Shown: positions 5,319 through 7,255 of the stretch, in pieces
Numbering within the stretch: position 1 is the stretch's first letter
Layout of the letters: each line of letters begins with the position of its first letter
Assembly (NCBI GenBank): GCA_021802595.1
Contig: JAJZRT010000068.1
Span: 2,914 to 11,039, forward strand
Direction: 5' to 3'
Origin: Pseudomonadota bacterium
GTDB taxonomy: Bacteria; Pseudomonadota; Gammaproteobacteria; Burkholderiales; Thiobacillaceae
DNA length: 8,126 nucleotides
The notes under the pieces: generated by a model
The model's input: only the letters and a program-made list of their open reading frames with translations
What the model was told of the DNA's origin: nothing
Databases searched by the model: none
Translations under genes and position numbers: made by a program

Positions 5319-5744
5319 ATGAAACCGATCCAAAACTTCAAATTCCATTCGGGGGTCACTCTGATCGAGTTGATGATCGTGGTGGCCATCATCGGCATCC
5401 TGGCAGCCATTGCGTACCCGAACTACCAGGATTATGTGCGACGGAGCAAACGTGGCGATGCGCAGGCAATCATGACGGAAGATGCGCAGTTTCTCGAGCG
5501 CTACTTCACGACGAATGGCACGTATACCGGCGCGGTGTTGTCTGCGAACCAATCCCCTAAGAGCGGAACGGCAGATTACAACATCACCCTGCCGGTCGCA
5601 AACTTGACTGCGACGACCTATACCATACAGGCAACGCCAACCGGAACATTTAACGACCCGCTGTGCGGGACGCTGACGGTTGACCAGACAGGCAACCGGA
5701 CCGAATCGGGAACCGGTAGTCTGACAGACTGCTGGAAGAACTGA
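5319..5744 (+). CDS. pilE: PilE, type IV minor pilin with class III signal
   Basis: Pilin-like protein of 141 residues, last gene of the pilus operon, probably the minor pilin that links the tip-priming complex to the shaft. The N-terminus is textbook: a short leader ending HSG (10-12), PilD cleavage at G12|V13, then [20 protein letters not shown] with Glu at mature position 5, and [16 protein letters not shown]. Mature residue 1 is Val rather than the usual Phe. Two cysteines near the end (PLCGT and DCWKN) can close the D-region disulfide loop. The start at 5319 is preferred because CGGGAG at 5304-5309 precedes it by 9 bases; an in-frame ATG at 5298 overlaps the upstream stop but gives an awkward leader. 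It could in principle be a ComP- or major-type pilin, but the synteny favours PilE. It ends 37 bases from the stop of the convergent PEP-CTERM gene. Confidence 0.9.
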
Positions 5745-5757
5745 GCTGTCCCGTGCC

Positions 5758-5800
5758 CGGCGCAGGCGTGAGGGCCGCCGATTACTTCTTTTTGTTGTTG
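5758..5800 (+). terminator. Weak candidate terminator of the pilus operon
   Basis: After the pilE stop, CGGCG (5758-5762) can pair with CGCCG (5776-5780), and four bases later comes a T-rich run, CTTCTTTTTGTTGTTG (5785-5800). The stem is only 5 bp with a 13-base loop, so this is a weak intrinsic terminator at best. The T-run is the complement of the Asn/Lys codons ending the convergent PEP-CTERM gene, so it may be there for coding reasons alone. Confidence 0.22.
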
Positions 5801-5958
5801 CGATTTCTGGCCCTGACCAGTAGTCCTGCAGCGGCGCCGATTCCCAAAAGCCAAAGGGCGCCCGGTTCCGGGATGGGCGCGGGCGTGACAGCAATTTTGT
5901 TAAACGCGAGAACGGGAAGTGCGGTCGCGGCCAGAAGGAATCCTAAGAGTTTGCGCAT
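5782..5958 (-). CDS. Short PEP-CTERM sorting-domain protein (58 aa)
   Basis: Exported microprotein predicted to be processed by an exosortase (EpsH/XrtA family). The whole protein is a signal peptide (MRKLLGFLLAATALPVLA, 1-18), a spacer of about ten residues (FNKIAVTPAP, 19-28) and a C-terminal sorting signal: I-P-E-P (29-32), GALWLLGIGAAAGLLV as transmembrane segment (33-48), and a basic tail R-A-R-N-R-N-N-K-K-K ending in TAA. Order and spacing match the PEP-CTERM domain (PEP motif, hydrophobic helix, Arg/Lys cluster). GGAG at 5968-5971 stands 9 bases before the ATG, and a sigma-54-type promoter lies further upstream, so this is unlikely to be the remnant of a longer gene. Leucine codons include several CTT plus TTA and CTA, unlike the CTG/CTC-rich neighbours. 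Such proteins usually accompany exopolysaccharide production. Almost no mature domain remains after processing, which is odd. Function unknown. Confidence 0.85.
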   Translation of the reverse strand: MRKLLGFLLAATALPVLAFNKIAVTPAPIPEPGALWLLGIGAAAGLLVRARNRNNKKK

Positions 5959-5967
5959 GATGAGGTT

Positions 5968-5971
5968 CTCC
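5968..5971 (-). promoter_or_regulatory. Shine-Dalgarno of the PEP-CTERM gene
   Basis: On the - strand GGAG is followed by 9 bases and then ATG. It fixes the start of the 58-codon gene and supports its being translated despite its small size. Confidence 0.7.
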
Positions 5972-6041
5972 AGCTTGGAATTGATTTATCGTTAAGCAGC
6001 CAAGATGCGAACCGGCTTGTCGCCAAATGGCCTGCGTTTAT

Positions 6042-6060
6042 CCAGCAATTCTCATGCCAG
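6042..6060 (-). promoter_or_regulatory. Sigma-54 (RpoN) -24/-12 promoter for the PEP-CTERM gene
   Basis: The - strand reads CTGGCATGAGAATTGCTGG. It fits the sigma-54 consensus TGGCAYR-N4-TTGCW at every position: TGGCA is at 6059-6055 and TTGCT at 6048-6044. The invariant GG (6058-6057) and GC (6046-6045) are separated by exactly 10 bases, as sigma-54 RNA polymerase requires. The predicted transcription start is near 6033, giving a leader of about 75 bases to the ATG at 5958. It points at the PEP-CTERM gene and no other start lies between. Sigma-54 promoters need an enhancer-binding activator; PrsR (with sensor PrsK) is the known candidate for PEP-CTERM genes in Proteobacteria, but no activator site can be named here. 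Confidence 0.75.
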
Positions 6061-6082
6061 ACCTGGGCTTCCTCAGGAATTG

Positions 6083-6178
6083 CTGAACAAGTCCTTCGAC
6101 AAGCTCAGGACGAACGGCAAGTTGTTGATTCCGTTCGTGGTGAGCTTGTCGAACCATGAGCGGAATCAACTTGTTCAG
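6083..6178. repeat. Inverted pair of REP-like palindromes
   Basis: Two copies of a REP-like unit with the core TTCGACAAGCTCA face each other. The arm at 6093-6117 matches the reverse complement of 6131-6155 at 21 of 25 positions. The right-hand unit is also a hairpin by itself: 6127-6141 pairs with 6153-6167 (two positions would be G-U in RNA), extended to 6118/6173 by a 3-base bulge, around an 11-base loop. The left-hand unit has a short stem, GTCC (6091-6094) with GGAC (6108-6111). An outer 9-bp perfect inverted repeat (CTGAACAAG 6083-6091, CTTGTTCAG 6170-6178) closes the structure, and fainter symmetry continues to about 6069 and 6194. Such REP pairs are scattered through many proteobacterial genomes and are linked to RAYT (TnpA-REP) enzymes. 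The core motif is familiar from memory; copy number cannot be seen here. Confidence 0.75.
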
Positions 6179-6275
6179 TTCTTCCCTCAAGGAATCTCAA
6201 TTACCAGCAAACTGCGGCTCCAGTATACCGGCCGCCCTATCTTCTCAATCCGCGATGCAAGAAACGATTAAGCCG
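6179..6275. other. Non-coding stretch between REP pair and ispH
   Basis: I see no gene here. Short + strand frames crossing it run into the REP element or the ispH antisense and have no ribosome binding site. The only possible signal is a weak sigma-70-like pair on the - strand: TTGAGA (6248-6243) and TATACT (6227-6222) with a short 15-base spacer, pointing toward the REP pair and the PEP-CTERM gene. Confidence 0.5.
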
Positions 6276-6295
6276 CATGCATGCCGGCATGCATG
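6276..6295. repeat. Perfect 20-bp palindrome just downstream of ispH
   Basis: CATGCATGCC followed by GGCATGCATG is an exact inverted repeat without a loop, three bases beyond the ispH TGA. It can form a 3'-end hairpin for the ispH operon transcript. After it the - strand reads CGGCTTAATCGTTTC, with no clear U-tract, so a strong intrinsic terminator is not supported; 3'-end protection, a poor terminator or a protein-binding site are alternatives. Confidence 0.55.
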
Positions 6296-6298
6296 GCA

Positions 6299-7255
6299 TC
6301 AGCGATTCTTGTGGGCGGTTTCTGTGGTGTCAGCCAGGCCTTTTGGCAGCGGGAACCCCACGTTTTCTTCAGCGCCCTTCAAGTGAGTAACCTGTCCTGC
6401 CCCGGATCGGGTCAGACATGCGATGACGTCCTGTACCAGCACCTCGGGGGCGGAAGCGCCGGCCGTCACGCCGACATGCTGCTTGCCCTCCACCCACTGC
6501 GGGTCGATTTCGCCGGCGTTGTCGACCATGTAGGCGGGCACGCCCAGGTTTTCGGCCACTTCCCTCAGGCGGTTCGAATTCGAACTGGTCGGCGACCCCA
6601 CCACGATCACCACGTCGCTTTCCGCGGCAAGTTTCTTGACGGCGTCCTGGCGGTTCTGTGTGGCGTAGCAGATGTCGTCCTTTTTCGGGCCGGCGATATT
6701 CGGGAAGCGCGCGCGCAGGGCCTCGACCACGCGCGCGGCGTCGTCGACCGACAGTGTGGTCTGGGTGACGTAGGCGAGTTTGCCGGGATCGCTGACGCAC
6801 AGCGCGGCGACGTCCTCCGGCGTTTCGACCAGGTACATGCCGCCGTTCGACTGGCCCAGGGTGCCTTCGACTTCGGGGTGCCCCTTGTGGCCGATCATCA
6901 CGATCTCGAAACCCTTGTCGCGCATCCTGCTGACTTCGACGTGGACCTTGGTGACCAGCGGGCAGGTGGCGTCGAACACGTTCAGCCCACGTGCCTCGGC
7001 CTCCAGGCGCACGGCCTGCGACACGCCGTGCGCGCTGAAGATGACGGTGGCGCCGGTGGGCACTTCGGCCAGTTCCTCGACGAAGATCGCGCCCTTGGCC
7101 TTGAGGTCATTGACGACGAAGGTGTTGTGCACGACTTCGTGGCGCACGTAGATCGGTGCGCCGAATTTTTCCAGGGCACGCTCGACGATGGCGATGGCGC
7201 GATCGACGCCGGCACAGAAGCCGCGCGGGTTGGCAAGCAGGATGGTGGGGGTCAT
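6299..7255 (-). CDS. ispH: IspH, 4-hydroxy-3-methylbut-2-enyl diphosphate reductase (LytB)
   Basis: Last enzyme of the MEP isoprenoid pathway: a cytoplasmic [4Fe-4S] protein that reduces HMBPP to IPP and DMAPP. It is 318 residues, against 316 in E. coli. The three cluster cysteines are present: C14 in [11 protein letters not shown]98 in [10 protein letters not shown] and C196 in [11 protein letters not shown]. Substrate and proton-relay motifs are intact: HEVVHN (H43), GHPEVEG (H126, E128), [16 protein letters not shown] and [10 protein letters not shown]. The start at 7255 is chosen because [16 protein letters not shown] aligns with known N-termini and GGAA stands 5 bases before it; the 14 extra in-frame codons upstream overlap the end of fkpB. 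It lies 13 bases after fkpB and is probably the last gene of an (ileS)-lspA-fkpB-ispH operon. The convergent layout with pilE is the same as in Pseudomonas. Confidence 0.97.

Follow-up and report, generated by a model that had tools for sequence, protein, structure and literature searches.

A sigma-54 promoter of a short PEP-CTERM gene with a palindromic repeat upstream and without the predicted PrsR box of its orthologues

The PEP-CTERM locus

The window, by which we mean the whole 8,126 nt stretch of DNA analysed here, contains a gene encoding a 58-aa PEP-CTERM protein (Table 1). Its neighbours ispH, fkpB and lspA share its strand. The opposite strand carries a type IV pilus cluster made up of pilW, pilX, pilY1, a gene for a 116-aa protein and a gene for a pilin with a ComP-type domain that is named pilE here. 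The protein has the C-terminal PEP, hydrophobic stretch and basic tail of its class and exceeds the curated cut-offs of both the Pfam and the NCBIfam model, which upholds the gene call of an earlier interpretation made from the DNA alone (the sequence-only reading).

Table 1. Features in and around the promoter region of the PEP-CTERM gene
Feature	Position	Strand	Details
58-aa PEP-CTERM protein gene	5782..5958	-	PF07589, 26.9 bits (cut-off 20.7); TIGR02595, 25.1 (cut-off 16)
Expected transcribed leader with GGAGAAC ribosome-binding site	5959..6034	-	Start at ~6033-6034 predicted from the -12 position
Sigma-54 -24/-12 element TGGCATGAGAATTGCT	6044..6059	-	GG 6058-6057, GC 6046-6045, spacing GG-N10-GC
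REP/MITE-like repeat with terminal inverted repeats and central palindrome	~6071..6191	.	Inverted repeats I1-I3
Interval from the repeat to the ispH stop codon, the place of the box in relatives; box absent	6192..6298	-	
Perfect 20-bp palindrome CATGCATGCCGGCATGCATG directly behind the ispH stop	6276..6295	.	I6

The protein consists almost entirely of sorting signals. Judged by eye, the signal peptide is predicted to be cut at LPVLA/F near residue 18, leaving about 11 residues between the likely cut and PEP, and the same interval in the orthologues is about 6-11 residues. A 48-aa protein of the same design, with approximately 5 such residues, is encoded in G030 (L060), also under a box and sigma-54 promoter of the kind described below. 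In a comparison of nine sequences with dS near saturation, dN/dS was approximately 0.10 for the PEP-CTERM part, which was the most constrained, 0.26 for the signal peptide and 0.31 for the linker. As the coding sequence appears constrained, the gene is likely to have been useful at least until recently.

Besides the window's own match, 17 other proteins were returned at E <= 0.01. Relatives matching over the whole protein are at L001-L005, in Hydrogenophilales and Thiobacillus assemblies, and L006-L008, which match it only in part, were set aside. No relatives were found in viral contigs. When the 117 genomes of the family of G003 were searched with a profile, 11 matched at 1e-6, and the eight with the gene in the same place form the orthologue set used here; weak matches in G030, G037 and G060 and a second match in G063 lie outside this syntenic set. 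Among 399 genomes sampled from the order, three matched the profile, G003 being one of them.

At all eight loci, ispH is upstream on the same strand, and pilE, the gene for the 116-aa protein and pilY1 are convergent. The gene fkpB is present at seven of the loci, lspA at four and pilX-pilW at five, with the others falling past the locus ends. The most closely related neighbour genes are those of L001 (IspH 94%, PilE 82%) and L003 (IspH 93%, PilE 75%). Together with the Hydrogenophilales and Thiobacillus origin of the whole-protein relatives, these point to a Thiobacillus-like host and not to a Zoogloea-like one.

The core sigma-54 element

The sequence-only reading had reported a near-perfect sigma-54 promoter with exact GG/GC spacing on the correct strand before the PEP-CTERM gene. 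The element TGGCATGAGAATTGCT does fit TGGCAYR-N4-TTGCW exactly, with the GG-N10-GC spacing that defines such promoters, and in a pattern scan it was the sole exact match in the whole window. An exact match arose in 1 of 200 dinucleotide shuffles of the window. No gene was recognised between the promoter and the start codon, in line with the earlier description. The distance of 75 bases given there fits the interval between the ATG and the expected transcription start (~6033); measured from the ATG, the GC pair is 87 nt away and the GG is at -100.

The strict TGGCAYR-N4-TTGCW pattern has 116 matches in the eight relatives (~24.3 Mb), whereas its backward version has 7. Chance therefore does not account for most of the clade's strict matches, and a sigma-54 regulon is visible. 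Together with the shuffles, these counts agree with the view that a chance match of this quality is unlikely.

A sigma-54 matrix was built from the clade's own PEP-CTERM promoters, using 24 reference sites and leave-one-out scoring; the sites include the eight orthologues, of which six were found by pattern. With this matrix the window core scores 12.4 bits, the lowest of 25, the reference sites having scores of 13.2-23.7 that are flattered because 22 of the 24 were chosen by exact pattern. This is above the 95% point for random sequence (7.4 bits) and is rare by chance, with P = 0.008 per random 340-nt stretch. Scans of positions 5700-6400 returned one sigma-70-like site, at 6333-6305 within the end of ispH, and no terminator, and an RNA-family search gave no match.

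Conservation of the promoter in syntenic orthologues

GG-N10-GC is found at the matching place in 8/8 syntenic orthologues, with the GG at -64 to -120 from the ATG, so the promoter call has passed the check on conservation of GG/GC that was suggested with it. The 116 strict matches include none of the eight orthologous promoters, in which conservation extends to GG/GC and a small number of further positions. As the bare GG-N10-GC is frequent, occurring two to four times per 340-nt upstream region in the orthologues and three times in the window, the argument from conservation rests on its place and on the surrounding GGC..G.A...TGC pattern, which is present in similar form at the matching place in all eight.

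Alignments of the window promoter and leader with L001, L003 and L016 each beat 300 of 300 random sequences. For the other orthologues, the number of random sequences (of 300) that did as well was 1 for L018, 9 for L002, 23 for L005, 48 for L004 and 63 for L021; L004, in which a run of N separates box from promoter, was aligned apart from the rest. The weak alignments with distant orthologues indicate that these have kept GG/GC and little else.

The predicted PrsR box

Haft et al. (2006) described a composite element before 99 of 167 proteobacterial PEP-CTERM genes, consisting of a 17-nt motif 1 that ends in TTTACA and a sigma-54 motif 2 (PMC1569441). As given in that report's account of the motifs, the spacer between them has a mean of 62.8 nt (32-92), motif 2 is on average 71 nt before the start codon, and phylogenetic profiles tie both motifs to PrsR, PrsK and PrsT. 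Thiobacillus denitrificans is among the genomes tabulated there. The window resembles this element in its motif 2, in the single PEP-CTERM gene downstream and in its long non-coding region. It differs from the element as described in lacking motif 1, the predicted response-regulator box, and in having a repeat directly upstream instead.

In all eight orthologues the predicted PrsR box is present, with six exact copies of GTCGnnTTTYTTTACA and variants in L004 and L018. The GG is 100-112 nt below the first base of the box, or ~126 nt in L004 across the run of N. From the end of the box to the GG is about 84-96 nt, and about 110 nt in L004; this spacing reaches or exceeds the upper end of the range given in PMC1569441, for which the maximum is 92.

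No box with up to three mismatches was found anywhere in the window. With a box matrix, the 340 nt preceding the window gene reach at best -8.5 bits, compared with a mean best of -6.0 for random 340-nt sequences and 19.1-34.7 for the 24 reference boxes, and the best score across the whole window is 3.6 bits, within pilY1. When positions 6186-6298 were compared with seven orthologues (L004 left out), the summed similarity was reached by 109 of 500 random sequences. The proposal that PrsK/PrsR controls the window copy is thus not supported, as the box, a defining feature of that regulon found in 8/8 orthologues, is absent here.

In the 117 family genomes, the composite of box and sigma-54 promoter occurs at 22 sites in 19 genomes, and the backward control gave 0. 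An ORF with a C-terminal PEP motif follows 20 of these sites; of the other two, one is followed by a PEA variant and one (L045) by a different gene. The eight relatives have 25 exact boxes, against one backward-control match. An ORF flagged as PEP-CTERM-like, using a permissive text pattern, follows 23 of the 25, and a motif 2 of at least 12 bits follows 15. Two exact boxes (L133, L149), in G004 and G005, precede a 466-aa ORF that is not flagged. As there are 78 PEP-CTERM matches in the eight relatives, the exact box marks only part of such genes.

PrsK and an exosortase are encoded in all eight relatives, and PrsR is over the cut-off in each of the five of them that were searched for it. The PrsR model gave 30-42 matches in each of these five; many include the activator domain, others the receiver domain only. 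RpoN is present in 8/8, over the cut-off in seven. In the eighth (G004:C102:2821-4225), rpoN matches as two pieces that overlap, both below the cut-off, as a result of a frameshift or an assembly error.

Comparison with the Aquincola pepA promoter

In Aquincola tertiaricarbonis RN12, pepA is RpoN1-dependent, and its promoter, for which the start has been mapped, has TGGCAC and CTGCTT motifs (PMC9850573). Insertional inactivation of prsK abolished floc formation, and neither prsK nor prsK-prsR restored it (PMC9850573). In the account of pepA given there, RpoN1 dependence was tested and PrsR dependence was termed probable. Of the dependence on RpoN and PrsK/PrsR stated in the sequence-only reading, the RpoN part is therefore matched by pepA, and the PrsR part reaches only what PMC9850573 calls probable. 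Both promoters have -24/-12 elements before a PEP-CTERM gene, TGGCAC / CTGCTT for pepA and TGGCAT / TTGCTG in the window. Unlike that of the window, the pepA promoter is stated in PMC9850573 to have a predicted enhancer upstream. The next gene also differs: prsT follows pepA, whereas a convergent pilin gene follows the window's PEP-CTERM gene.

The upstream repeat

The near end of the ~120 bp repeat is 12 nt above the -24 GG. Full or partial matches to it were found in at least 39 of the 117 family genomes, a count in which at most seven candidates were scored per genome and many matches are partial; the match in G084 is 95% over 111 bp. The window copy could be aligned with 14 other copies from relatives. 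We take the repeat to belong to the REP/BIME or MITE-like palindromic repeats, which it resembles in its size, its terminal inverted repeats, its central palindrome and its dispersal, with several copies per genome in many relatives. The repeat had no match at the eight orthologous loci. When 6060-6310 was compared with plasmid records, two partial matches of ~65 bases were returned, both inside the repeat. Literature searches found no report of such repeats in Thiobacillus, where the match concerned another organism by its title, and no 'REP element' among the matches listed for REP elements combined with sigma-54 and enhancers.

A 14-nt inverted repeat (86%) links the -12 region (6038-6051) with the promoter-proximal end of the repeat (6077-6090), and its two arms also pair when 6030-6190 is folded as single-stranded DNA. 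In this stretch, the window's CAGCAATTCC is not shared by most of the other copies. A shared inverted 9-mer was seen in 1 of 5000 random 35-mers, a test that was chosen after the fact. The inverted repeat is possibly the product of templated mutation. Donation of the -12 sequence by the repeat was rejected, as L016 (CCTGCTAGATAAA) aligns with the window -12 without a repeat.

A promoter probably separated from its regulon

On the evidence of its sequence and its orthologues, the window element is an inherited sigma-54 promoter of a short PEP-CTERM gene, of the RpoN/PrsK/PrsR regulon type of the proteobacteria. It is of a known type, a variant of a known element with the box missing and a repeat upstream. 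Sigma-54 promoters need an activator and are held inactive without it, and the window copy is therefore likely to be without normal PrsK/PrsR control and to be silent, weak or differently activated.

In the relatives, PrsK would sense a signal, and PrsR would presumably bind the GTCGnnTTTYTTTACA box ~100 nt upstream, a step extended to this clade from the model in PMC1569441. Through DNA looping, PrsR would then open RNA polymerase-sigma-54 at GG-N10-GC. In the lineage of the window, where the REP/MITE-like repeat adjoins the promoter on its upstream side and the box is missing, PrsR control would probably have been lost, leaving the promoter silent, weak or otherwise activated. We put the probability of this reading, an inherited sigma-54 promoter that lost its box with the repeat upstream, and with it PrsR control, at about two in three. 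The constraint on the gene suggests that loss of the box may be recent or that the gene is still somehow expressed. Since many PEP-CTERM genes are without the box, both in the 2006 survey, as reported in PMC1569441 (99 of 167 with it), and in the relatives (25 exact boxes, 78 matches), its absence alone is no proof of silence.

It is unlikely, though the best placed of the alternatives, that PrsR still controls the window promoter through a diverged box, for which the candidate is TTAATCGTTTCTTGCATCG. Sigma-54 enhancers tolerate changes in distance, which would allow such a box. With the repeat omitted, a multiple alignment sets TTAATCGTTTCTTGCATCG on the boxes of seven orthologues (L005 left out), and among single local alignments of the region the best one, to L003, was equalled by 47 of 500 random sequences. 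However, TTAATCGTTTCTTGCATCG is the sequence that scores -8.5 bits, below the random mean and far from the reference boxes, and the summed similarity of 6186-6298 to the orthologues is not beyond chance. A box surviving in place as TTAATCGTTTCTTGCATCG is therefore suggested by one alignment and not supported by the matrix and shuffle tests.

Slightly less probable than a diverged box is that a mobile palindromic repeat severed the promoter from its PrsR enhancer and brought it under another activator, so that it now depends on a different activator of sigma-54 or on a site within the repeat or palindrome. The core has stayed intact and, unlike that of any of the eight orthologues, is an exact match to the general sigma-54 consensus, and the many PrsR-model matches with an activator domain in the relatives provide candidates for such regulon rewiring. 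Against it, no known activator site was identified in the window, and by the clade matrix the core is the lowest of the 25.

We consider it improbable that faulty assembly at a repeated element produced the upstream junction and that the actual genome carries a normal box. Metagenome contigs can be mis-joined at repeats, ispH reads 11 residues past its usual end, and the junction is known from a single contig; an identical protein is known from one 13,767-base contig (P0001), leaving no second copy against which to check it. Beyond the repeat, however, ispH, fkpB and lspA follow in the expected order and direction, so any assembly fault would be confined to a few hundred bases. That the sigma-54 match is due to chance and the gene uses another promoter is very improbable: although bare GG-N10-GC is common, the start site is a predicted one and the alignments with L004 and L021 are not beyond chance, the GGC..G.A...TGC-like sequence at the matching place in every orthologue, the excess of strict matches in the relatives and the confinement of the one sigma-70-like site to the ispH end all argue against it.

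The action of PrsR through the box is a prediction in PMC1569441 and PMC9850573, as far as these treat it, and the Thiobacillus-like syntenic loci add support to the 2006 model (PMC1569441). As sigma-54 promoters are held inactive without an activator, the orthologue set, with eight members that have the box and one that does not, amounts to a natural test of whether PrsR acts through that box. Should the rewiring reading be true, an enhancer-dependent promoter would have changed regulon, with unrewired orthologues intact for comparison.

Sequence around the end of ispH

A second GG-N10-GC in the window, at 6286-6270 on the minus strand, overlaps the 20-bp palindrome. With the clade sigma-54 matrix it scores 11.8 bits (P about 0.01 per 340 nt), only slightly less than the real promoter, and it continues as GGCTTAAT, which resembles the GCTTAAT of several orthologues.

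The 11 additional residues of IspH are encoded in 6299-6331. Similarity of IspH to its relatives ends at residue 307 or 308 at seven of the eight loci and at 312 in L005, and, set against L018, the window appears to lack one base ahead of the usual ispH stop. L005 has, at 6321-6519 between its PEP-CTERM gene and pilE, a second piece resembling the C-terminus of IspH.
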